Assembly (NCBI GenBank): GCA_030039775.1
Contig: JASHUX010000222.1
Location: 1-13,864, forward strand
Reading direction: 5' to 3'
Origin: Alphaproteobacteria bacterium
GTDB lineage: Bacteria; Pseudomonadota; Alphaproteobacteria; ATCC43930; CGMCC-115725
Length of the DNA: 13,864 nucleotides
Each line of letters starts with the position of its first letter. Position 1 is the first letter of the stretch. Positions 252-13,864 of the stretch are shown here, in pieces. The notes beneath the pieces are model-generated. The model was not told where the DNA came from. It saw only the letters and a list, made by a program, of their open reading frames with translations, and searched no databases. The position numbers and the translations under genes are program-made.

Positions 252-1224
252 CGGCCACCGCTCTATTGACACGCCTTCCGTTCCACGCCAATGGCAGCGC
301 CGGCGCGCCGTCCGGCGCCAGGAAATCGCGCGCCCGATAATGCGCGTCGGTCAGCAGCTCGGCCGGAAGTTTCACCGGACCGATCGGGATGCGCCGCGCT
401 TGCGCCGCCGCCGTGATCTCGGTGCGGGTGCGCGCCGCGAACCACGGGCCGATGATCGCCGTCAGCGCCGCGCGATTGGCGCCGCGCAGTGGCGCGGAGG
501 CGAACCGCGGATCGTCGAGCCGCGCATCGCCGATCAGCGCGCGGAGCGGCGGCCAGTCCTTGTCCTGGTAGACCAGCGCGACATGCCCATCCTTCGCCGC
601 CACCGTGAACCACTGCGTCGCGGTGCCGCGCACCGGAACGCGGCCGAGAATCAGCATATCGGCGGCGGTCTTCCAATTGAGCCAGACGCAGACATCGAAC
701 AGCGAGACATCGACGATCTCGTCGCCGCCCGCGCGCAATGCCGCGAACAGGCCCGTACACGCTGCAAGACCGGCAGAATAAGCGGGCTGATGCCCGGCCA
801 ACGGGACCGGCGGCGCCGGCGGCGGCTCGCCGACAACGCCGAGCAAACCGGAGAGCGCAAGCAGACCGAGCTCGCTCGTCGGCGGATCGTCGCCCGGTCC
901 GAACACGGAAATGCGGACCTTCGCCGGCACCTCGGCCGCATGGCGTGCCAGCGAAACCGTATCGCCGATCGCGGCGTCGAACCGGCCCAATGCCGGACCG
1001 GTATGCTTGCCGGCATTGAGGAAACGATCCAGCGCCGAGCCGCCGCCCGGCAGCAATGGCGGCATCGTCGCAAACGGCTCGCCCGCCGCCGGGACGGGCC
1101 GCACCACCTCGGCACCGTAGGCAAGGCAAAGTTTCGCCGCCATCGACGCGGCCAGCGCATGCGGCTGCCGCGCGCACAGGGCACCAAGATCGAGCACGCG
1201 CCGGCCGGCAAGCGGCGCGAGCAC
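241..1224 (-). CDS. CaiB/BaiF type III CoA-transferase
   Basis: Family III CoA-transferase of about 327 residues, shorter than the usual ~400. The N-terminus LAPLAGRRVLDLGALC is the CaiB/BaiF opening. The motif VDVSLFDV near residues 171-178 carries the expected catalytic Asp (about D177), as in formyl-CoA transferase. I prefer the GTG at 1224 over the TTG at 1263: GTG gives the canonical N-terminus, sits one base after the TAG stop of the enoyl-CoA hydratase, and has a purine-rich AGGG upstream, whereas the TTG would add 13 atypical residues inside the hydratase gene. The middle section before the catalytic Asp is shortened, and the usual substrate-loop region is compact. It lies fourth in the leftward operon and overlaps the next CoA-transferase by 11 bases, so the two probably form one heteromeric enzyme or act in succession on the same pathway. 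The acyl substrate is unknown. Confidence 0.87.
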   Translation of the reverse strand: MLAPLAGRRVLDLGALCARQPHALAASMAAKLCLAYGAEVVRPVPAAGEPFATMPPLLPGGGSALDRFLNAGKHTGPALGRFDAAIGDTVSLARHAAEVPAKVRISVFGPGDDPPTSELGLLALSGLLGVVGEPPPAPPVPLAGHQPAYSAGLAACTGLFAALRAGGDEIVDVSLFDVCVWLNWKTAADMLILGRVPVRGTATQWFTVAAKDGHVALVYQDKDWPPLRALIGDARLDDPRFASAPLRGANRAALTAIIGPWFAARTRTEITAAAQARRIPIGPVKLPAELLTDAHYRARDFLAPDGAPALPLAWNGRRVNRAVAGVV

Positions 1225-1225
1225 G

Positions 1226-2005
1226 CTACACGCCCTGCCCTGGATTTTTGCCGCCGGCGGCAAAGCGCGCGCTGCCCTCGGCCTGCGCTGTGGTCTTGGC
1301 GCGGATGGCGGCGTTCACCGCCTGGCCGTGCTGCATCGCCCCCCGCCAATCGGTGATGACGGCGGGGATATGGTCGAGCGCCTTCTTGCTTTCGGCCAGC
1401 GCCACAGCGTCGAATTGCGCGATCTTTTCGGCCAGCGCCCGCGCCGTCGGCAGCAGCGCGTCGGGATCGACACATTGATTGACCATGCCCCACCGCTCGG
1501 CGGTCGCACCGTCGATACGGTTGGTGGTAAGCACCAGCCATGCCATCTGTTTGCGGGTGACGCCGGAAAGCTGGATCGCCGGCCCCGCCATGCCGGGATA
1601 GGTCGCGAACCCCATCTCGGGACAGCCGATGTTGGCCTTGGTGCTGGCGATCGCAAGATCGCAGACATTGATCAGCGTGGCACCGCCGCCGAGCGCGAGC
1701 CCGTTCACCGCGGCGATGAAGATGGCAGGATGCGCGCGGATCGCCAGGTTGACCGCGATCCATTCCTCGCCGGCGGTGTGGATGCCTTGCCGCACATCCT
1801 GCTCGCGCTCCTTGAGGTCGATGCCGGCGCAGAACGCGACCCCGGTGCCGGTGAGGACGATGGCCTTCGCATGGCCGCGCAATTCGTCGAAGGCGCGCAT
1901 CAGCCCCTCACGGCATTCGCGGTTCGCGGCGTTGCGCTTGTCTTCGCGGTCGATGCGCAGCTCGGCCCAATTGCCATGGCGCGTAACGACGATGGGGCTG
2001 GTCAT
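1226..2005 (-). CDS. Enoyl-CoA hydratase/isomerase (crotonase family)
   Basis: A 259-residue crotonase-fold protein of full length. The oxyanion-hole strands are visible as FCAGIDL (residues 58-64) and NGLALGGG (101-108). The motif CPEMGF places a Glu at 130, matching the second catalytic Glu of rat mitochondrial hydratase (E164). The position of the first catalytic Glu (E144, in GGGCE) is Thr 110 here (GGGAT). The typical C-terminal helix with EGSARF is present. Hydratases normally use both Glu residues; single-Glu members include isomerases, hydrolases and other crotonases, so 'hydratase' is only a family-level call. The ATG at 2005 is preceded by GGAGGG eight bases upstream and lies four bases after the DUF35 stop. 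It is the third gene of the acyl-CoA operon, and its stop is one base from the next start. It probably acts on an unsaturated or ring-containing acyl-CoA made in the same pathway. Confidence 0.92.
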   Translation of the reverse strand: MTSPIVVTRHGNWAELRIDREDKRNAANRECREGLMRAFDELRGHAKAIVLTGTGVAFCAGIDLKEREQDVRQGIHTAGEEWIAVNLAIRAHPAIFIAAVNGLALGGGATLINVCDLAIASTKANIGCPEMGFATYPGMAGPAIQLSGVTRKQMAWLVLTTNRIDGATAERWGMVNQCVDPDALLPTARALAEKIAQFDAVALAESKKALDHIPAVITDWRGAMQHGQAVNAAIRAKTTAQAEGSARFAAGGKNPGQGV

Positions 2006-2009
2006 GGCG

Positions 2010-2420
2010 TCAACCCTCCGGACCGAATTGCGGCAACAGGAAATCGCCCGGGCCGCCTGGGAACCGCACCGTGAGCCGCATGCCGATCTTGGCCTCGGCG
2101 GCGCTTATGCCGTCGAGATTGGTGAGGAGATACGGCCCTTCGTCGAGCTTCACCATCGCGACCGGATACGGCAGTTCGTCCGCCATGCCGTCGAAATATT
2201 TCTGGTGAAACACGACGAACGACCACAGCTCGCCGCCACCGGACGCATCGATCCACGCCCATTCGGGCCGCCCGGTGAAGGGCGAGACCGGGGCCGGCGG
2301 GAAGAAGCATTTCCCGGTCACTTTGCAGCGCTGCAGGATCAGCCGCCGCTCGCGGCAGGCCTGCCAGAACGGCCGATTCCAATTGTCGACGACCGGCGCC
2401 GGATGGGTGGCGAGGCTCAT
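2010..2420 (-). CDS. DUF35 OB-fold / degenerate zinc-ribbon protein, thiolase partner
   Basis: A 136-residue protein of the DUF35 family (N-terminal rubredoxin-like zinc ribbon plus C-terminal OB fold), which pairs with thiolase-fold enzymes of lipid-transfer-protein type. The motif FWQACRERRLILQRC (residues 19-32) is the family hallmark, followed by FFPPAPVSPFTG where the second zinc knuckle should be. Of the four usual zinc ligands only C32 is kept: the CxxCG knuckle reads CKVTG and the CPxCG knuckle reads SPFTG, although C22 and C38 are nearby. The OB part follows (ELWSFVVFHQ, YPVAMVKLDEGP, LLTNLDG). The ATG at 2420 overlaps the upstream thiolase stop as ATGA and has AGGAGA six bases upstream; the longer open frame to 2510 runs inside the thiolase gene and is not needed. 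Tight coupling implies a stoichiometric complex, as for Ltp2 with the DUF35 domain of ChsH2. It may bind the acyl-CoA in the partner's active site without zinc. Confidence 0.9.
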   Translation of the reverse strand: MSLATHPAPVVDNWNRPFWQACRERRLILQRCKVTGKCFFPPAPVSPFTGRPEWAWIDASGGGELWSFVVFHQKYFDGMADELPYPVAMVKLDEGPYLLTNLDGISAAEAKIGMRLTVRFPGGPGDFLLPQFGPEG

Positions 2421-3580
2421 GCGGCTCTCCTGAGGATCGCGCTCTGGGCGATGTTGGTGGCGCAGATATATTGCATCGCTTGCACATTCGGGATTTGGCG
2501 CGCGCCGCAATCATCGCGCAATTGCCGGACGCATTCGGCGATAACGCCCCAGCCCTGCATGTAGGAATCGGAAAGATGCCCGCCCGAGGTGTTGGTCGGC
2601 CACCGCCCGGTGCCGAGCTGCAACGTGCCGCCGCGCACGAACGCGCCGCCGTCGCCTTGCTTGCAGAAGCCGAGCCCTTCGAGGCTGAAAATCACGGTCG
2701 GCGAGAAATTGTCGTAGATGCCGAGGCCGCCGATCTCGTCCCGCCCAATGCCGGCGCGATCGTAAACGGCGCGGCAGGCCGACAGGCTCGGGTGCCAGAA
2801 ATCGTCCGGCGGCGCGCTGCCGTAGTGGAACGCGTCCTGCCGGGCGTAACCGGCGAGCAGCACCGGTGGCCGGCGCATGTCCTTCGCGCGCTCCGCGCTG
2901 GTCATGATCCAAGCCACGGCGCCGTCATTGATGAGGCAGTAATCGAGGAGCTTCAACGGCTCGCAGATCGGGCGCGCCTTGGCGTGATCGTCGAGCGTGA
3001 TCGGCCGGCCGTGCATCACCGCGTCGGGATTGAGACACGCATGATGGCGGAAGGCGACGGAGATGTGGCCGAGATCGGCATGCGTGGTGCCGAACTGATG
3101 CATGTGGCGGCGCCACATCATGGCGTGGATCGCGCCGGGGCTGGTCATGCCCCAAGGGCTCCATTGGCTGTCGTCGCCGCCATACATCATGCGGACGGAA
3201 CGGCCGTTATTGCCGTAGACCAGCGCCACCGTCTTGGCGGCGCCCGTTGCGATCGCTTGCGCCGCGAGCGCCAGCGACACCCCGGAGAAGCGTCCCGGCG
3301 TCTCCGTCAGCAGGCAATATTGCGGATTGACGCCCATCATCTCGGCGAAACGCTCGTAGGTCGGGATGCGGTTGACGATGAGCCCGTCAATGTCCGACGG
3401 TTTAAGCCCCGCGTCGTCGAGCGCCGCGTTCAGCGCGACGCAGCCGAGGCCGTAGCTGTCCGTTTCGGGAAAATTGCCGAAGCGGCTGGTGCCGATGCCG
3501 GCGAAGGCGACCTTGTCGCGCAAGGACCACGATGCGCCGATGGCGGGCGCGACAAGCGGCCGGTTGGGTGGCATGAGCAT
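2417..3580 (-). CDS. Thiolase-fold lipid-transfer-type protein, probable Ltp2-like aldolase
   Basis: A 387-residue thiolase-superfamily protein of the SCP-x/lipid-transfer branch. The opening DKVAFAGIGTSRFG, the segment AAQAIATGAAKTVALVYG (106-123), CLINDGAVAWIMTSAERA (215-232) and NTSGGHLSDSY (330-340) are its landmarks. The usual nucleophilic Cys loop is replaced by TETPGRFSG (residues 92-100), which has no Cys, and the canonical GHPxG histidine motif is absent. Tyr 289 (IYDNFSP) and Tyr 340 occupy places where Ltp2-type retro-aldolases use catalytic tyrosines. From family knowledge I infer a retro-aldol cleavage of a beta-hydroxyacyl-CoA side chain, not Claisen thiolysis. The ATG at 3580 has GGGAGA five bases upstream; a second ATG two codons in is possible. 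It is the first gene of the operon and ATGA-coupled to its DUF35 partner. Steroid, bile-acid or other terpenoid side chains are plausible substrates, but none is proven by this sequence. Confidence 0.88.
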   Translation of the reverse strand: MLMPPNRPLVAPAIGASWSLRDKVAFAGIGTSRFGNFPETDSYGLGCVALNAALDDAGLKPSDIDGLIVNRIPTYERFAEMMGVNPQYCLLTETPGRFSGVSLALAAQAIATGAAKTVALVYGNNGRSVRMMYGGDDSQWSPWGMTSPGAIHAMMWRRHMHQFGTTHADLGHISVAFRHHACLNPDAVMHGRPITLDDHAKARPICEPLKLLDYCLINDGAVAWIMTSAERAKDMRRPPVLLAGYARQDAFHYGSAPPDDFWHPSLSACRAVYDRAGIGRDEIGGLGIYDNFSPTVIFSLEGLGFCKQGDGGAFVRGGTLQLGTGRWPTNTSGGHLSDSYMQGWGVIAECVRQLRDDCGARQIPNVQAMQYICATNIAQSAILRRAA

Positions 3581-3694: not shown

Positions 3695-3717
3695 TTAAGC
3701 ATTCGAAATGGGCGCGC

Positions 3718-6700
3718 TTACCGCGCGGCGGATTTTCCAAGCACCGCAATCTGCGCCTGGCAGTAACCCGTGACATCCGGCGGCGACAGCGCCGCGGGCG
3801 ACCATATCGTCGCCTTCATTGGCGTCGCCACGCATTGCTTGAGCGCGGCGAGCGCACCCTTGTTGTCGCCCTGGGCCTTGAGCGTCATGGCGACGCGCTC
3901 GCGGCTCAACGGCAGCAACCTCGACCAGGTTCCGTTGGGGCAATTTTTCTGCACCAGCGTTAGGGCGCCGCTTTCGAATTCGCGATACTGAACGAGAGCG
4001 CCCGCGATGTCGCCTTGCGCCAGGAGCGCGTCGCCCACCTTTTTGATGCGCGTTCGCCGCCTCATAGATGGCGTTGCCATAAGTCGGAAATCTCTGAAGC
4101 GTGTCGGCGGCCAGCGAAAGATAGAGGCGGAATTGCGTCACCGCGTCGGGCGGATCGTTCTGCTTGAGGTACAGATCGCCCAATCGTTGGTAGGCCACCA
4201 TGTAGAATTCGCGGAAGCGGAAGATTTTCGGCGCCTGTTCGGCCAGGTTCTCCGCGATCTTCCGGTATCGCTCATATTCCGTCGCGGCGCGTTCGGTATC
4301 GCCCTTTGCCAGCCACAGATCGCCTTGCCGCTGGTGGGCCTGCAACTGCGCCGCCAGGTTTTCCTCGCTTGCCCGTCGGTCGGCCATCTCGTCGGCCTTG
4401 GTGACGTTCACCTGATAGTGCGACACCGCCTCATCGATCCGGCCGCGCGCCATCGCGATATCACCGAGGCGCTCCTCGGAAAATACGATATCGCCGAGCC
4501 ATAGACTCGGTTCTTTCGCCTCCGCTTTTGTCGCGTCCGCCAGGCGCGTCTCTCCGGCGGCTTCGGCGCGGTCGAGGTCGCCCATCGCCATCCACGCATC
4601 GGTGATGGTTTCATAGTCGGTCAACAGGCGTTCGTGGAGATAGTCGTTGCCGGGATTCGACGTGAGCAGCTTCTTAATAACCGCGACGCTGTCCTCGGCG
4701 TCGCGCACGGCCTTGGTGCAATCGCACTGCCGGAACTGCAGCCCGCTCCGACGACCGCGCGCGAACGCCCATAACTGCAGCCACTGAGGATTGGCCGGCT
4801 CCTTGGCGATGAGTTTGTCCGCCAGGTCATTTTCCATCCGCGCCATTCTGAACGCGTCGGAGTTGCCGGTTGAGACGCCGACTAGGGTGGCGGCGTCGAG
4901 CAGCTTCACCCGCGCGACCGTCGCGTCGTCCGGATCGTCAGGGCCGGGCGGACCATCGACGACTTGCGCGGAATTCGCGACGACGGTTCCAAGCACGTCC
5001 GCGCTGATCTTCCCACGGTCATACGTATCCTGGAGGAAGTTGAGGCTCGCGGTCGCCTCGGTCAGCGCCAGCGTGAAATTCTTTTGCGCCAGCACTTCGC
5101 GATCCGCGGCGAGGTTGCTCTCGCGCAGCGCGAAGTTGCCGGCGATCACGGCGACGACGAACAGCACCGACACCACGGCAGCGACAATGCGGACGCGCTT
5201 GAGGTCGCGTCGCAGCGCCGCTTCCTTCGCCCGCTGTTCCGCCGCGATCCGCTCCTCTTCGGCCTCGATCGAGGTTTCGGCGTAAACGACGCTTTCGGGA
5301 TCGACATCATGGCGCCGCTTTGCCAGCACCTCCTGCGCTTCGGCCAGACGCCGGCCGGCCGGCAACAGAAAGTCGGGATGCCGGCTGTGGGTTTCCCAGG
5401 CGGCGGCGTCGAGTTGGAGGCGGCGACGAATGACCAGGAAGTCGCGGTCTTCCTCGATCAACGCCCCAAGCAGTTTCCAGTGGGTCAGCAATGCCTCGTG
5501 GGCCAGGCGTAAGGTCACGCCCGTCTCGTTGCGGTCGGCCACTAGAAGCCGCGCCCTCACGAGAATGTCGGCGACATCGCCCTGCGCGGTATCGGCAAGC
5601 GCGGCCCGCCGCACGGTCCGAGCCGTCGCCGTGCCCTTGATCTCGTCGATTTCGACCAGCGCCAGCAGCAGGGGCCGGAGCGCCGGTTTCAGTTCGTCCG
5701 GCAGGGTTTCGGCGGTTTCCCGGGCGTGTTGGGCGATCGCACCCTCGAGCTGGCCGAGGTCTCGGTAGCCGGCATAGGTCAGCGTGTTCCCGCCGGCGGT
5801 CACGACGTCGCGGCGGTAAAGCTCATCCAGCACGAACGAGAGCAGCGGCAGCGCCGCCGCGTCGCGTGCGGCCGCCTCGCGAATGACCGAGGCGAGGCTT
5901 GTGTCGTCGGCGGGATCGACCTCGAACGACAGGCCTGCGATTTCGGCCGGACGTCCGATGATTTGCTCGATCTCGGTTCCCGTGACCGGCGCGAGATGAT
6001 ATTGACCCAATCCCTTCGCCATCTCGGTCATTTCCGGCAGCTCGACCACGCGGTGGAAGAAATCACTGCGCATGGTCGCAATCACCCACACCAACCCACT
6101 CTGCGCGAGGCTGGAGAGAATCTTATCGAGGGCCCTGCGCGTCTGTTCCGAGTGGGCGGCCGAGGTGAATAGCACCTCCATCTGATCGAGGACGAGCACC
6201 AGTCGTCCTTGGCGCAAGCTGCTTGACGGGTTGGGATCGTCGGCCGCCGCGCGTTCCAAGGCGAGGCGCAACGGTACCGTCGCCAGCGTGCCGCCCGCGC
6301 GCAACTGGGCGGCAATGTCGTCCGCGCTATAGCCGATCGTCGCCAATTCGGGCAGTGCTTGCTTCCGGAACAGGGCTGCAGTCAGCCCCGCGGCCGGGTC
6401 CGGCGCGAGTTCGGCCGGCGTGACGATCACATGGCGCCAGGTCGAGATGCCGGCCACCACGCCCGGCGCCATCAAGTCCGGTAGCAGCCCGGCGCGAACC
6501 AGCGAAGACTTGCCTGAGCCGCTAGCGCCGAGAACGAGCATGAAGCCCGTGCCTTCGCCGACGCGGCGCACCAGGGCCTCCGTGATTTCGCGTTCGGCCC
6601 GGTCGCGGCCGAAAAACACCGCGGCGTGCTCGACGTCGAAGGCCTTTAAGCCGAGATAGGGCGATCCCGCCCACCAATCGATCCGGTCGCCAGGTGTGTG

Positions 6701-7299
6701 CGTGGTTCGTGCGCCTTGGGGAGGTAAACGCCGGCGCAGCAATTCGCGCAGATCGTGCTCGAGCCGCGTTTCGAACTCATCGAGCGTTTGGAAACGGCTG
6801 AAACCGGCCTTAAGTGTCCCGGGCGCCTCGAAATGACGCTCCCAGAACGCCTGCAGCGCCTCCCACTGCTCGCGCAATTGATTGAGTTGTTCCGAGCGGC
6901 TGAATTTGGCAATGCCCTCGGCAAATTTCCGGTAGACGAGCGGCTGCGGGCTGCCGCGCTTACGCTCGGATTCAATTGCCTGCTCATATTCCCACTCGGT
7001 GCCCGTGACAGGCATGCGGCCGTCGATGCCGCGATATTCGCGCGTCGCCGTTTTTTCCGGCAGCGGCGTGCCGAGCCGAGACCATAGGATCAGCACCAAG
7101 ATATCGGCGTCGCCCGGCGGATCGATGATGTCCTGGAAATGACCGGAGCTCAGCATCGGCTCATATTCCCAGAGCACCGGCGCGATATCGAAAAACCGGG
7201 CGAACTCGCGCTTGAGCCGGCTGATCACCAGAGCCGCCCGCAGCCGCTCGTCCGCGACGTCCCCCGGCGAGGAACTGAAGATCTTCAGCGGTCGCGCAT
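3718..7299 (-). CDS. DUF4062-nSTAND1 NTPase with membrane span and TPR tail (two apparent frame breaks)
   Basis: A ~1190-residue signalling-type STAND ATPase. The uninterrupted frame runs 7228-3695 (1177 codons from a GTG); numbers below use that frame. An N-terminal DUF4062/TIR-like region (ADILVLILWSRLGTPLPE at 41-58, GTEWEYEQA at 76-84) precedes an NTPase with Walker A GASGSGKSS (234-242) and Walker B LVLVLDQ (343-349). A winged-helix-like segment, a charged helix (650-680), one membrane span (681-699) after basic residues, and TPR-like repeats follow. Positive-inside reasoning puts the ATPase in the cytoplasm and the TPRs outside it. The family's opening strand KIFxSSPGDV is encoded just upstream (7285-7258) with no ATG, GTG or TTG in frame; ATG 7299 would reach it if one base were added near 7288. 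The TPR tail shifts frame at an A5 run (7-base context 4038-4044): the real tail (VGDALLAQGD...AVLGKSAAR) ends at 3718. Relatives include defence and regulatory proteins; the role here is unknown. Confidence 0.82.
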
Positions 7300-9104: not shown

Positions 9105-10448
9105 TTATGGAACCACTTCGACTTGCTGCGTCGTCGGGATTTCTTTTGCCACCTTGTTGATGTTGATCAGTTGCGTCAGTAGCGCGAGGACCTGGAGCGT
9201 GCGGTCGTCGCTTGTCACAGGATGCACGAAATAGGTGGCATCCAAATAGTCGACGCTGTAACGGGCATGATCGGATTCAGGGCTCAGGTCGATCAGCGAG
9301 TAATGCATGTGCTGCTTCACGATTTGCGCTGCTTCCGGATTCCGGAGCAAAGCGCCGAGATATTGAATGATGCCTTCAACCGAACGGATCCCGATCGCGC
9401 CGAAATCCGCGGGATTGGTTTGCCCGCCGGCGGTCATCGGGGCGACGGCGGCATTGCAAACGCTTTTCCAGGAATCGCGGATCATGGCTTCGAAGGATGG
9501 CGCCGACGAGACCGCCGCGCCGTGCGCCTTGGCAGAATTGCTCGGTCGGCTGGCGGAAGGCCGCGGTCCCGGCAGCTGGGGCGCCAGCATCGGAAATTGG
9601 ATCTTGTTCGATCTGATGTCGTCATCCAAACCGACCATGGGGAGCGGTACGTTGCCTCTGCAGAACACGATTTCCGGTTCGGCATTCACTGAATAGAGCT
9701 GGGCCTTCTTGTCCGGCAGACTGGCGAGACGAAACTTGGCGGGATCGAGCGCGGACAAATCCTTCAACACATCGGATTTGGACGAAAAGGAGATCGGCGG
9801 GCCGATCGGCGTCAGCCGGGTGTAGCGATTAGCCTTCACGACGTTGAGATCGGTCTGATTGTCGAAGATTTCGTCGATGTATTCCGCGAATTGCTCCAAC
9901 AGCTTCGGTTGCGTCGGATCGTTGAAGTACGTGCCCGGGCGGCGCGGCCCGCCGCTGGCCGCATCAGGCTCCGGCGGGCCGCTCGCGACATCGGCCGTCT
10001 TGATCTGCGAGAACAGCAAGAACATCAGCATCTTCTGCGGAATCTCGCGATCCATGTAGTATTTGACCAAGACCGGATCGATCGGGGTCAAGATGCCGCG
10101 CGTAAAGTCCTGCGTATCAAGCGGTGCGACGTCAAACGATGGACTGGTCGAGGCGTTGATCCCCGACATTCCCGTGCCGATGCTGCCCCGCGTCGTCGAT
10201 TTGTCGAGCGGGCCGGTCGGCCAACTCGTGGCCAGCGATCCGCCCAGCGTCATCTGAAGCCGGATGTCGGAAAGGGCACTGAAGTTGAGGGGCGCATAAT
10301 CGCGGGCGCGCAGGACGTTCGTCACCAAACTGACGCCCGCCATTTCTTCGTAAGTCTGCGTGTAGTCGACCGTGGATTTCTTGACCAGAGATGCGAGTGA
10401 GCAGCCGCCGACAAGCAGCGCGGCCGCGAGCGCTATTGCGATCCTCAT
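9105..10448 (-). CDS. Predicted lipoprotein of unknown family
   Basis: A 447-residue predicted outer- or inner-membrane lipoprotein. The N-terminus MRIAIALAAALLVGGC has one Arg, a hydrophobic core and a lipobox VGGC with Cys 16 as the lipidation site; an Ala/Ser after the Cys would favour outer-membrane sorting. I chose the ATG at 10448, which has GAGGGTGGGG just upstream, over an ATG 10 codons earlier that would place LRSRVGG before the signal. The mature part starts with a Lys-Lys and Tyr-rich stretch (VDYTQTYEEMAGVSLVTNVLRARD), contains a Pro/Ser/Ala-rich low-complexity linker near residues 295-315, and has two further Cys (in IVFCRGN and SVCNAAV) that could form a periplasmic disulfide. 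I recognise no catalytic motif or named domain. The gene diverges from the GAF-protease-exporter operon across about 150 bases, so it may be co-regulated with it and could act at the envelope with the exporter; that link is inference. Confidence 0.82.
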   Translation of the reverse strand: MRIAIALAAALLVGGCSLASLVKKSTVDYTQTYEEMAGVSLVTNVLRARDYAPLNFSALSDIRLQMTLGGSLATSWPTGPLDKSTTRGSIGTGMSGINASTSPSFDVAPLDTQDFTRGILTPIDPVLVKYYMDREIPQKMLMFLLFSQIKTADVASGPPEPDAASGGPRRPGTYFNDPTQPKLLEQFAEYIDEIFDNQTDLNVVKANRYTRLTPIGPPISFSSKSDVLKDLSALDPAKFRLASLPDKKAQLYSVNAEPEIVFCRGNVPLPMVGLDDDIRSNKIQFPMLAPQLPGPRPSASRPSNSAKAHGAAVSSAPSFEAMIRDSWKSVCNAAVAPMTAGGQTNPADFGAIGIRSVEGIIQYLGALLRNPEAAQIVKQHMHYSLIDLSPESDHARYSVDYLDATYFVHPVTSDDRTLQVLALLTQLININKVAKEIPTTQQVEVVP

Positions 10449-10480
10449 GCCCCCCACCCTCGACCGAAGGTTATGCACCC

Positions 10481-10509: not shown

Positions 10510-10596
10510 GCGGCTTGAAAAGGTCGGTTCGGCCCCTCGACTCGCCTGCTGCCCTATGATTAGCTTTCGCGGACTGCGGTGGGGATGTTGGCACGC

Positions 10597-11337
10597 ATGC
10601 CGGCCTACAAAAGTCGGAACGTTTCGGCGCCCGCGATGGGCAAGAAAATGGTCGACACGCGGTCGCGCAGATCGGTTTTCGGTGTCTCCAGAGCCGCGCC
10701 CGAGGCGGTGGAATTAAAATGGCTGCTGGATACCGGCATTCATTTGATCGGTGCCGACGAGGGCTCGTTGCTGGCCTATGACGAGGCGAAGCGCGTTCTG
10801 CGCTTCGTGATGACCGCGGGAAATCGTCGCTCGGAGCAGAAGCTGATCGGTCAGACCGTCCCGCTCAGCCGCGGATTGACTGGACTCGCGGCGCAATTGC
10901 AGGAAGTTCAGATCGGCACACCGACCTACCACAAGATCGAGCAAGTCGGACGGCATGGCAGCACACCGCTCGAGCCTCGGAACGTAATCGCGGCGCCCAT
11001 GGTTGCGCGCGGCGTCTTGCTTGGCGTCATGACCGCCGTTCGTTTCTCGCCGCACCCTGTGTTCACGATGGAAGAAGGAAAACTCCTCGGCCGTTTTGCG
11101 GCGGTGGCGGGGCTCGTCATCGAACAGCATCGGCGGCTCGAGGCCCTGGCCGCCGAGCGAAAGGGACATCCGGTCACGGTGGATGGTACCGGCGACCGCC
11201 ATCAGCGAAAGATATTGGCGGCGATCGCGGAGGTCAGGCGCCACCGGCCCCAGGCGATGGCGGGGTTGGCGCGCACGATTGGCGACGTGGCAGCGCTGAT
11301 TGTCGCGGATACACGTGACGCCGATGCAATCCAGTGA
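10597..11337 (+). CDS. GAF-domain protein
   Basis: A soluble protein of 246 residues carrying one GAF domain (about residues 40-185). The pattern WLLDTGIHLIGADEGSLLAY, then LSRGLTGLAA, then NVIAAPMVARGVLLGVMTA, FTMEEGKLLGRFAAVAGLVI and a closing helix QHRRLEAL is typical GAF order; such domains bind small ligands, chromophores or mediate dimerisation. There is no fused kinase, cyclase or DNA-binding domain, so any output must go through a partner. A short helical C-terminal tail follows. Possible starts are GTG 10579 and ATG 10585, 10597 or 10636; I chose 10597 because GGGGA lies about ten bases upstream and the long basic leader is compact, but this is uncertain. It is first in the rightward operon, and its stop overlaps the protease start by 14 bases, so the two are translationally coupled. 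A sensor or allosteric subunit for the protease is a reasonable inference. Confidence 0.83.
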   Translation: MPAYKSRNVSAPAMGKKMVDTRSRRSVFGVSRAAPEAVELKWLLDTGIHLIGADEGSLLAYDEAKRVLRFVMTAGNRRSEQKLIGQTVPLSRGLTGLAAQLQEVQIGTPTYHKIEQVGRHGSTPLEPRNVIAAPMVARGVLLGVMTAVRFSPHPVFTMEEGKLLGRFAAVAGLVIEQHRRLEALAAERKGHPVTVDGTGDRHQRKILAAIAEVRRHRPQAMAGLARTIGDVAALIVADTRDADAIQ

Positions 11338-12175
11338 CCTCCGCCGCGCGCTTGACGCGCCGCTGGGTCGGCTCGCGCGACGCAAACTTGCGCCCGTGGA
11401 CGTCGCGGTGCTCGATAGCGGCATCGATGCCTCCCACCCCGATTTGGCAGGGCATGTCCTTGAGGCCTTTCGCGTCCAATCGGACGCGAAAGGGGCCCGC
11501 CTCGTTTCGGCGCGAACGGGCATCAATCAGGATGCATTCGGGCATGGCACCGCGGTCGCGAGCATCATCCGGCGCGTCGCGCCGAACGCGCGGCTGATCG
11601 ATGTTCGCGTCGTAAGCGCGGATGATGTTTTCACCGGCGAGGCTCTGATTGCGGGCCTGACCGCCACGGTCGAACGAAAATGGAAGGTCGCCAATATCAG
11701 CCTGGCCGCGTCGCCTGGGGTTGCGCGCCATTTGATGCCGCTGTGCGAACGGGCTCACTTCCAGGGGCAAGTGCTCGTGGCGTCGCAGCGCAATTTGGCA
11801 ATCGAGGACGACGGATATCCGGCGGCGTTCTCCTCGGTCCTGGGCGTGACCTCGCGGGATATACGCGCGGCATACGAATATTTCTTCGACGACGGCGCCA
11901 TGATCGAATGGCAGGCGGCCGGCGAAAAAATCGCCGTCGCCGCGAGCGGCGGCGGCTACACGTTGAAGGCGGGGACCAGTTTCGCCACACCGGTGATCGC
12001 CGGCATGTGCGCCTTGGTGTTAGGCGCTTTTCCCGACCTGACGCCGTTCGAGATAAAGACCGTGCTCAAAGCCCATGCCCGGGCCGCAACCGTTTCACTG
12101 CCGAACGCGAGCCGCCGACCACACCCGCAGCGCGGCCCACCCCATCAATCCAAGCTTAGGAGACAGCACGCATGA
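11324..12175 (+). CDS. Subtilisin-like serine protease (S8 family), no signal peptide
   Basis: A 283-residue S8 peptidase domain with a complete triad: Asp 31 in VAVLDSGIDASHPDL, His 74 in FGHGTAVAS and Ser 219 in GTSFATPVIAG. The Asn of VASQRN (about 157) probably serves as the oxyanion-hole residue, although the usual AAGN context is changed. There is no signal peptide, propeptide or extra domain, so it should act in the cytoplasm on a specific protein or peptide. The ATG at 11324 overlaps the GAF stop; a TTG (11300) or GTG (11315) in frame would add a few residues. The last ~25 residues are Arg/Pro/His-rich and look unlike protease; in another frame the same DNA reads FTAEREPPTTPAARPTPS and stops just before the next gene's ribosome binding site, so a late frame break is possible. 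The stop forms an ATGA overlap with the small zinc-ribbon gene, which is a good candidate partner or substrate. Confidence 0.9.
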   Translation: MQSSDLRRALDAPLGRLARRKLAPVDVAVLDSGIDASHPDLAGHVLEAFRVQSDAKGARLVSARTGINQDAFGHGTAVASIIRRVAPNARLIDVRVVSADDVFTGEALIAGLTATVERKWKVANISLAASPGVARHLMPLCERAHFQGQVLVASQRNLAIEDDGYPAAFSSVLGVTSRDIRAAYEYFFDDGAMIEWQAAGEKIAVAASGGGYTLKAGTSFATPVIAGMCALVLGAFPDLTPFEIKTVLKAHARAATVSLPNASRRPHPQRGPPHQSKLRRQHA

Positions 12176-12408
12176 CGACCGCACCCGCCAAGACGAGACT
12201 CATTCCCGCGTCACGGGCCAAGAATCTGAAGAAGGCCAATCAGGGCAAAGCCCTGAAACACCCGCCGCGGGGTGCCGCGGTAGAGGCTGAGGAAGGCTCG
12301 ATCAAATTGGTGTCGTGTCCGTCGGGCCATATGAATTTCATCGAATACGACCCGAACAAGAACCAATGGTACCAATGCACCGTGTGCGGCTGTTCCTTTG
12401 AGATGTAG
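12172..12408 (+). CDS. 78-residue basic protein with C-terminal zinc-ribbon-like motif
   Basis: A small protein in two halves. Residues 1-40 are basic and Ala/Pro/Lys-rich without predicted structure (RLIPASRAKNLKKANQGKAL, then KHPPRG). Residues 45-78 contain CPSGH, then NFIEYDPNKNQWYQC and TVCGCSFEM, giving CxxxH and CxxC(G)C ligand sets about 16 residues apart. YQCxxCGxxFE is the usual second knuckle of a zinc ribbon, so zinc binding is likely. The ATG at 12172 overlaps the protease stop as ATGA and has TAGGAGA about ten bases upstream, so it is a real, well-translated gene. Location between a subtilisin and an ABC exporter lacking its own peptidase also fits a leader-plus-core precursor peptide, with the basic half as leader and the Cys-rich half as core. 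I favour a zinc-ribbon adaptor or substrate and treat the precursor reading as the alternative. No family name is known to me. Confidence 0.8.
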   Translation: MTTAPAKTRLIPASRAKNLKKANQGKALKHPPRGAAVEAEEGSIKLVSCPSGHMNFIEYDPNKNQWYQCTVCGCSFEM

Positions 12409-12441
12409 CCGAGACCCGCGCCGCGCGGTTCGGGGGACGCG

Positions 12442-13864
12442 ATGACCTCGCTGTCGGAAACGGCACGCACCGTACGGACGACACGGCCGTCGGTGTCGTC
12501 TCAACCGAAGCAGCGCGCCTGGTTCTGGCGGGTGCTCCGCGCCGGGTGGCGCGCAGTGCGTGACCGGCCCGGGCTGTTTTTCGGCGGCAGCGCCGTTCTT
12601 CTTATTGTCGATCTGATCGCACTCTATAACGTGCAATTATTGGCCGCTCTGACGACATCGTTGTCGGGACAGAGCGGATCGCCCCAGATGATTTTCGATA
12701 TCTGGGTGCCGAACGGACCCGACGTCCAAAGCTTGATGTTCCTGGGCCTGGTCGTTTTGATCGTATTGCTGCGCATTCTTCAACGGCGGATGTCAGCCCA
12801 GTCCGAAAACGAAACGCTCGCCGCACTTCGGCTGACGTTGCATAACCGCATCCTGAGTTTGGGCCCCGACTATTACAAGCGGACGACGCCCGAAAGTCTT
12901 GAAGGCTTGGTGATGGGCGGCGCGCAAGGCGCGAATTTGCTGTTCCGCCAATTGATCGCCGCGCCGATCACGCAGCTTCTCCCGCTCGGCACCGCCATTT
13001 GGCTCATCTACAACAACATCAACGTGGTGAGGCAACAGGGCGCTTTTGTCCTCCTGATCTTGCTGTTGGTCCTGATCGCCTTGCCGGTCGTCGGCTGGTT
13101 TTTCTCCACGCGGGTCGATCGCGCGATCGGACGCGCTGTGGCCCTGGCCGGGAAACTGACGACGGAAACCGCCAATTCTCTGTCGAAACCCGAGGAAGTT
13201 CAGCAGATGGACGCGCTGCCGCAGCGCGCGCGAGCCTATAAAGTCAGACTGGATGAGCAGGCGAAAGCGCAAACCGTCGCGACGGCCGGGCAAGGCCTAG
13301 CGGAGCAGATCAAGAATGCCGTGCAGCCGCTGCTGCAGGCGCTGTTTCTGGTCTACGGCGCCTATGCCGCCTTTCATAATCACGATCCCGCCACGGCGGG
13401 CGCCATCGTCGGCCTTTTCCTGTTCATCCCGCAGGCGATCAATCCGCTACGGTCCGTCATCGACCTCGTGACGGCGATCAATACCGCCCACTCGACGATC
13501 GGCGGCGTTCTCGACATTTTGGAAACCGCGCCGCCGCGTGCGCCGGAGGGCGGCGGTGTTGCCCTGGCGGCGGTGGATTGTTCGGTCACACTGACCGATG
13601 TTTTCCTGCATTATGCCGGCGCCGCCGCGCCGGTGCTCGACGACGTGTCGCTGCAAATCGCGCCGGGAAAAGTCGCCTCGATCGTCGGCCGGTCGGGCGC
13701 CGGAAAATCGACCGTGCTCAATCTCGTCGCCGGCTTGGCGACGCCGGATCGGGGCACGATCGAGATTGGCGGGAAAAAGTTCGCCGACATTGAGACTCAC
13801 AGCCTGCGTCGGCACGTAGTGAAGGTGTCGCAGGACCCGCTGCTGATCACCGCATCGGTGCGCG
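12442..13864 (+). CDS. ABC exporter, TMD fused to NBD (cut by right edge)
   Basis: An open frame of 474 codons running off the right edge. After a basic ~40-residue cytoplasmic N-terminus, hydrophobic segments appear at about 46-70, 96-113, 170-190, 200-221, 292-312 and 318-336, six spans as in type-I/IV exporters. The coupling region is RLTLHNRILSLGPDYY (130-145), where family members have a conserved Phe/Tyr. The NBD begins near 378; Walker A is GRSGAGKST (416-424) and the Q-loop Gln is about 464 (KVSQDP). The signature motif and Walker B lie beyond the edge. There is no N-terminal C39 peptidase or cyclic-nucleotide domain. The long extracytoplasmic loop between spans 1 and 2 (70-95) is Ser/Gly/Pro-rich. 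The ATG at 12442 has GGGGGA about five bases upstream and lies 33 bases after the small-protein stop. Linkage suggests that it exports the small protein, a fragment of it, or another substrate processed by the S8 protease. Confidence 0.88.
   Translation, partial: MTSLSETARTVRTTRPSVSSQPKQRAWFWRVLRAGWRAVRDRPGLFFGGSAVLLIVDLIALYNVQLLAALTTSLSGQSGSPQMIFDIWVPNGPDVQSLMFLGLVVLIVLLRILQRRMSAQSENETLAALRLTLHNRILSLGPDYYKRTTPESLEGLVMGGAQGANLLFRQLIAAPITQLLPLGTAIWLIYNNINVVRQQGAFVLLILLLVLIALPVVGWFFSTRVDRAIGRAVALAGKLTTETANSLSKPEEVQQMDALPQRARAYKVRLDEQAKAQTVATAGQGLAEQIKNAVQPLLQALFLVYGAYAAFHNHDPATAGAIVGLFLFIPQAINPLRSVIDLVTAINTAHSTIGGVLDILETAPPRAPEGGGVALAAVDCSVTLTDVFLHYAGAAAPVLDDVSLQIAPGKVASIVGRSGAGKSTVLNLVAGLATPDRGTIEIGGKKFADIETHSLRRHVVKVSQDPLLITASVR

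Follow-up and report, generated by a model that had tools for sequence, protein, structure and literature searches.

Gene content and organization of the operon

The DNA analyzed here, referred to as the window, is a 13,864-nucleotide stretch that makes up the complete contig C377 (JASHUX010000222.1) of an alphaproteobacterial genome of 476 contigs that is 71% complete. Toward its 3' end lies an operon of four co-directional genes on the plus strand, confirmed from the open reading frames (ORFs) and the sequence, which encode a GAF-domain protein, a subtilisin-like protease of peptidase family S8, a small protein of 78 amino acids (aa), and an ATP-binding cassette (ABC) exporter.

10648..11337, plus strand: GAF-domain gene (Pfam GAF_2; alignment of 6 homologues; profile matches to solved structures)
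11324..12175, plus strand: S8 subtilase of cytoplasmic type (Pfam Peptidase_S8, alignment, residues, own clade)
12172..12408, plus strand: gene for the 78-aa small protein (database relatives, dN/dS, low-confidence structure model)
12442..13864, plus strand: 5' part of the ABC exporter gene, 474 codons covering the transmembrane domain (TMD) and the start of the nucleotide-binding domain (NBD), cut by the contig end

The layout described in a first-pass annotation of the window was upheld: the S8 start overlaps the GAF gene by 14 bases, the small gene is joined to the S8 gene by an ATGA overlap, and a gap of 33 bases separates it from the ABC gene. For the GAF gene, in-frame alternatives lie upstream at 10579 (GTG) and 10597 (ATG), and the start at 10648 is the best fit to distant homologues. 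Pfam matches were found to GAF_2 (E-value, 2.6e-8), in agreement with the stand-alone GAF domain proposed earlier, to Peptidase_S8 (5.7e-25), and to ABC_tran (8e-17); no Pfam family matched the 78-aa protein above its cut-off. Purifying selection acts on each of the four genes, with ratios of nonsynonymous to synonymous substitution (dN/dS), computed against the same-genus genome G031, of 0.085 (GAF), 0.14 (S8), 0.10 (78 aa), and 0.20 (ABC, covering only the part present in the window). The order S8, small gene, ABC is identical in G031.

The catalytic Asp, His, and Ser residues and the oxyanion Asn of the S8 domain are all present in the window protease and invariant in the six aligned S8 proteins, which places it in peptidase family S8 and bears out the intact triad that had been called from the sequence. 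Neither a signal peptide nor a propeptide was seen in it by eye. Its best solved-structure match is subtilisin BPN', and it also matched the NCBIfam model for QhpE (NF049966; E-value, 4.8e-25), reaching 88.2 bits of a curated cut-off of 165, and the type VII mycosin model (E-value, 1.2e-28), reaching 100 bits of a cut-off of 279. In a phylogenetic tree in which QhpE was represented by two of four loci (L060 and L061 yielded no usable row, and gen_L030 was left out), the window S8 clade was separated from the two QhpE rows with 100/100 support. A clade model built from six members scored 327 to 490 bits for 18 clade rows and 24 and 47 bits for the QhpE rows. At an E-value of 1e-30 the wider family counts at least 691 proteins, 120 of which were listed, and one protein, P0223, is a GAF-S8 fusion in a single chain. 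A plasmid or viral home for the protease was considered and dropped, since no close relative was found on plasmid contigs (identity at most 38%) or viral contigs (at most 33%). Proteins P0221 and P0222 are two different S8 proteases of the window subfamily, both on 26511-base contigs, and probably represent two copies on one contig.

The exporter homologue is fused to a nucleotide cyclase unit

Because the window is an entire contig, the ABC gene is cut inside the NBD. Its homologue in G031 is a 1229-aa fusion of TMD, NBD, TPR-S, a SLOG-like region, and a cyclase domain, in which TPR-S (PF20308) scored 47.1 bits with a gathering cut-off of 27.6; the window gene ends before this region. The first-pass annotation, which stopped at TMD-NBD, had therefore missed the TPR-S/SLOG-like/cyclase part past the contig end, and the TMD-NBD exporter without a peptidase domain that it described is only the first part of a truncated gene. 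The lack of a peptidase domain did hold, as no C39 match was found in P0005, P0008, P0009, or two distant ABC proteins. Read by eye, the Walker A, signature, and Walker B motifs of the exporter are complete, and its TMD is recognizable but weak.

The C-terminal domain has the class III nucleotide cyclase fold and both of the Asp residues that bind metal in that class. The middle region (about residues 860 to 1050 of the G031 protein) gave one unrelated Pfam match below threshold and no PDB profile match up to an E-value of 1; it was modeled as a Rossmann-like alpha/beta structure and shows a short stretch of similarity to a protein from L056 with a weak YAcAr match. The rest of the G031 model was barely probed because the cyclase domain filled the structure search; among the best 50 matches shown there was no PycC structure, which excludes nothing. 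To our knowledge, the fusion of an ABC exporter to a nucleotide cyclase is unusual, and none was described among the literature matches listed.

Other arrangements of the unit were also seen. Proteins P0013 to P0020 carry a BTAD/Trans_reg_C part, a cyclic-nucleotide-binding domain, and a TPR-S/cyclase unit in one chain and are possible self-contained cyclic-nucleotide regulators; P0020 is without the cyclase region in the alignment. At L095 (G128), an ABC ATPase-like gene (133-1176) is followed 9 bases on, on the same strand, by a stand-alone cyclase unit (1186-3045), possibly another ABC-cyclase pairing.

Conservation of the GAF-S8-ABC triad

Searches across the class scored the best first-look candidates in each genome (five for the TMD, six for S8, and two for the cyclase unit), so that a miss does not equal absence. 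The exporter TMD alignment found a match in 5 of 385 class genomes, and the S8 alignment found the same five at E-values below 1e-130 and nine others at 1e-26 to 1e-21. The GAF, S8, and ABC genes are adjacent and co-directional in all five genomes, four of which belong to another, distant family that appears to include Zavarzinia. The S8 gene is present in 7/7 genomes of this family, which are also the seven of its order examined, and in each it has GAF and ABC genes beside it, with one contig (L055) ending inside the ABC gene. Identity to the window in four aligned distant genomes is 42 to 45% for S8 and 42 to 44% for GAF; for the TMD it is 27 to 30%, with the G031 protein as the reference. 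The GAF and S8 genes either overlap or lie 9 to 12 bases apart (spacing of -17 to +12 bases in 9/9 loci), and S8-ABC spacing in the seven distant loci is -20 to +25 bases. When 378 phylum genomes were searched for GAF at an E-value of 1e-20, only the window genome and one Zavarzinia-like genome matched. Conserved linkage of S8, GAF, and ABC genes in distant genomes, which had been expected of a true system, was thus found in the distant family, and a GAF-S8 fusion also exists.

The cyclase unit was found in five of the seven distant-family genomes, near the triad in G084, G306, and G762 and elsewhere in G210 and G763, with a Crp-type regulator directly upstream of it in all five (by Pfam in two, by tblastn in all). 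Across the class, a match to the unit, in some cases partial, was found in 24 of 385 genomes, including three of the five with the triad. A Fisher test of triad against cyclase unit in the 385 genomes gave a p value of 0.002, which is given little weight because the three double positives are all from one genus.

Two further genes recur at the distant loci. A TPR gene encoding about 306 aa (L018 11731-12648; relatives in L017, L053, L057, L100, and L019) adjoins the Crp-cyclase pair in five genomes; in G382, where the searches found no cyclase unit, it adjoins the ABC gene. Four of the seven Zavarzinia-like loci encode, upstream of the triad, a secreted-looking repeat protein of 677 to 1048 aa with an apparent signal peptide, which is kept there despite differing wider surroundings:

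L018 3745-6522; L016 12720-15626; L017 13118-16264; L055 750-2783: repeat protein gene, upstream of the triad

This protein was considered as an S8 substrate and set aside, since nothing beyond position links it to the triad.

GAF domain and small protein

Three solved structures matched the GAF profile at E-values below 0.001: 1ykd, an adenylate cyclase that we take to be CyaB2, a cyclic GMP phosphodiesterase, and PDE10A. The next matches included a phosphohydrolase and DevS. The matches hint at a cyclic nucleotide as the GAF ligand, although the NK of the NKFDE motif, a mark of nucleotide-binding GAF domains, is not kept.

The gene for the 78-aa protein is, to judge from its dN/dS of 0.10, a real gene. 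A database search that depends on shared 5-residue words returned the protein itself and three relatives 74 to 85% identical to it. Of the Cys/His protein first described, the Cys part stands, with invariant residues at 49, 69, 72, and 74; the His part does not, as His53 varies and is Asp in two of four sequences. The N-terminal half is basic and the C-terminal half Cys-rich, and the structure model is a three-strand fold of low confidence (pLDDT, 46). PDB sequence matches of 16 to 38 residues, almost all of them to Kelch-type repeats, designed or human, were disregarded as compositional. No tblastn match to the protein was found in the seven distant triad loci at E-value limits of 1e-2 and 1e-5 (L055 ends inside the ABC gene). 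The search for homologues that the first-pass annotation had proposed thus gave only three close relatives of the small protein, whereas GAF/S8/ABC linkage was kept in the distant family. As far as searched, the protein appears lineage specific, and in the window's lineage it may be an adaptor, an inhibitor, or a lineage-specific substrate.

Flanking genes

9105..10478, minus strand: divergent flanking gene, lipoprotein-like by eye, no Pfam family
3695..7228, minus strand: nSTAND1-TPR gene (Pfam), with a DUF4062-like start, seen by eye, upstream of the listed GTG

The first gene is kept in G031 at 81% aa identity and had no match in the four distant loci searched; it is probably a flank rather than part of the operon. 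The last part of the second gene looks frame-changed near 4080, a change suspected by eye because a TPR-like ORF (3718-4080, minus strand) continues in another frame. In G031, a gene of the same class, with the domains TIR-nSTAND1-TPR, follows the operon on its strand after about 540 bases, and upstream of the operon there is a TIR-WD40 gene. Stand-alone cyclase units stand beside TIR or nSTAND1-WD40 genes in at least four of nine class loci, the neighbors of those four being the ones scanned. In G029, from the window's genus, a cyclase unit inside which the contig ends is followed by a gene (L056 82-1890, minus strand) with a SLOG-like start, DUF4231, and a SLATT match below threshold. Acyl-CoA metabolism genes (enoyl-CoA hydratase, thiolase-like) occupy positions 1226-3580 of the window, and the region upstream in G031 likewise contains enoyl-CoA hydratase and short-chain dehydrogenase genes.

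A proposed signaling-linked protease/exporter module

The operon is interpreted here, with a probability of roughly 40%, as a conserved alphaproteobacterial signaling-linked protease/exporter module, for which we know of no name. Its composition, linkage, and fusion and the cyclase fold are observed; the ligand, direction of signaling, substrate, and transport we infer. The genes for the GAF protein and the propeptide-less cytoplasmic-type subtilase are tightly coupled, and next comes the gene for a half-size ABC exporter. The exporter is fused to the TPR-S/SLOG-like/class III cyclase unit or, in the other family, lies near that unit, which is paired there with the Crp-type regulator. Cyclic nucleotide synthesis by the cyclase unit would respond to a state that TPR-S or the transporter detects, and the GAF domain would bind a nucleotide-like ligand and switch the protease. 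The protease would in turn trim or destroy a cytoplasmic protein, and the exporter would move the product, or a peptide reporting on the product, across the inner membrane. More tentatively, and with some doubt, the parts could form a transport-coupled second-messenger circuit in which the exporter carries its own sensor (TPR-S), SLOG-like domain, and cyclase, transport or substrate load sets a cyclic nucleotide signal, the GAF domain reads it and switches the cytoplasmic subtilisin, and Crp serves as a second reader in Zavarzinia-like bacteria. If so, a single operon would connect an exporter with a second-messenger enzyme and a switchable protease inside the cell, a new bacterial way to couple transport to regulated proteolysis, and the defined gene set in Zavarzinia-like bacteria makes this reading testable.

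Several observations weigh against the signaling-linked module. PF00211 stayed under its cut-off in all three ABC fusions. Two aligned cyclase positions are presumably the base-specifying Lys and the transition-state Asn of class III cyclases; the first is Asn or Arg in 17/17 rows and the second Thr or Ser in 14/17, so that the canonical adenylyl/guanylyl cyclase residues (Lys/Glu and Asn) are not found. Because these positions are replaced, the enzyme may make an unusual product or have no activity. The window GAF family retains the F and acidic residues of NKFDE and lacks the NK, and so departs from the pattern of cyclic-nucleotide-binding GAF domains; binding of a nucleotide or another ligand is still compatible with it. 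The cyclase unit lies apart from the triad in two of the five distant-family genomes that have it, was not found in two of the seven (92% and 74% complete), and occurs, whole or in part, without the triad in 21 of 380 class genomes. Nine of these 21 loci were examined by tblastn and contained no GAF, S8, or Crp relative within the stretch. The unit and the triad are thus separable, yet they have been joined twice, once by fusion and once by neighborhood. None of the 120 listed S8 matches is assigned the 300,763-base contig of P0008. Finally, activity, ligand, transport, and substrate are all putative.

Alternative explanations

The first-pass annotation proposed a ligand-gated cleave-and-export module. 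In its fuller form, S8 would remove the leader of the 78-aa Cys protein in the cytoplasm, the ABC protein would export the core, and the GAF domain would gate the process, much as QhpE and QhpF act on QhpC. The overlapping S8-small-ABC order shared with G031, the purifying selection on the small gene, and the basic N-terminal and Cys-rich C-terminal halves of its product agree with this, and excerpts of the literature describe such logic for Qhp (PMC7876137) and a cytoplasmic leader protease, ElxP (PMC10885120). However, the seven distant loci keep GAF-S8-ABC with no match to the small protein and no room for its gene between S8 and ABC, the conserved C-terminal half could equally be a metal-binding ribbon (the model is too poor to say), and no peptide-modifying enzyme was seen among the flanking genes scanned, which were not every ORF. 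The GAF/S8/ABC linkage of the original proposal survives; the small protein as a cleaved and exported substrate is unsupported as a general rule because of its narrow database range and the lack of a match in distant loci. Cleave-and-export of a small peptide is one of several readings, is not the best supported, and appears unlikely.

The same level of doubt applies to an immune or abortive conflict system of the nucleotide-signaling kind, in which TPR-S/SLOG/cyclase parts, along with TIR/nSTAND receptors, would detect an invader and the subtilase would act as the toxic effector. The TIR and nSTAND1 genes flanking the operon in G031, the nSTAND1-TPR gene in the window, the neighbors of the stand-alone cyclase units, and the DUF4231/SLATT gene after the G029 unit could all point this way. 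Presence in 7/7 genomes across an order is unlike the patchy distribution of defense systems, and the distant-order neighbors, read by eye without a scan, include ATP-synthase and branched-chain amino-acid transport genes. PADLOC 2.0, whose output came without cut-offs, gave domain-level matches only (mad3, 109 bits, to the ABC protein; subtilase, 66 bits, to S8; and a TPR match), and the low identity of plasmid and viral S8 relatives also counts against such a system. The TIR/nSTAND neighbors favor the conflict reading for the window's lineage, and the Zavarzinia-like conservation speaks against it as a general role.

House-keeping regulated proteolysis, in which the ABC protein would serve as a sensor or scaffold instead of exporting, its load or ATP state determining cyclase output, is quite improbable. 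The ABC-cyclase fusion, the presence in 7/7 genomes of an order, and the lack of a membrane-fusion gene among the flanking genes scanned are consistent with it, but the complete Walker A, signature, and Walker B motifs and the recognizable if weak TMD argue for transport, and flux sensing by the ABC protein is a supposition.

A divergent Qhp-type maturation operon can be rejected on score and tree as very improbable: despite the QhpE match and a qhpE gene at L062, above cut-off, that overlaps an ABC gene by 4 bases, the S8 protein falls under the QhpE cut-off and in another clade, the G031 ABC protein is only 27% (over 493 residues) and 32% (over 292) identical to presumed QhpF proteins, and no further qhp gene was seen by Pfam in the operon. 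We know of no Qhp counterpart of the GAF and TPR-S/cyclase parts.

Comparison with known systems

The window protease shares the S8 domain and triad with type VII mycosin and subtilisin BPN', which are secreted; it differs in being minimal, with no secretion signal seen. ElxP is likewise a member of S8. The closest solved GAF domains by profile are those of cyclic-nucleotide receptors (1ykd and PDE10A), but the window GAF domain is single and stand-alone, with the NK of NKFDE not kept.

A cytoplasmic protease acting before an ABC exporter has precedents that the first-pass annotation missed. In excerpts of PMC7876137, on quinohemoprotein amine dehydrogenase maturation, QhpE is a cytoplasmic subtilisin that cuts the leader off QhpC, and the ABC protein QhpF then carries out export; in excerpts of PMC10885120, ElxP is the cytoplasmic leader protease of a lanthipeptide; because of these precedents, the protease-plus-exporter logic is already known. 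The window operon differs from Qhp in its S8 clade and in that neither QhpC nor the radical-SAM protein QhpD was seen among the operon proteins and flanking genes scanned in the window and G031 (not every ORF was scanned). It differs from the ElxP-type systems of class I lanthipeptides in that no lanthionine enzyme was seen, the GAF and cyclase parts are present, and the candidate substrate is not conserved. The C-terminal half of the exporter fusion is a module of the TPR-S (PF20308)/nucleotide-cyclase type found in other bacterial proteins, where its partners are RyR, BTAD-Crp, and NB-ARC; here, in contrast, it forms one chain with an ABC exporter and is linked to a GAF-S8 pair.

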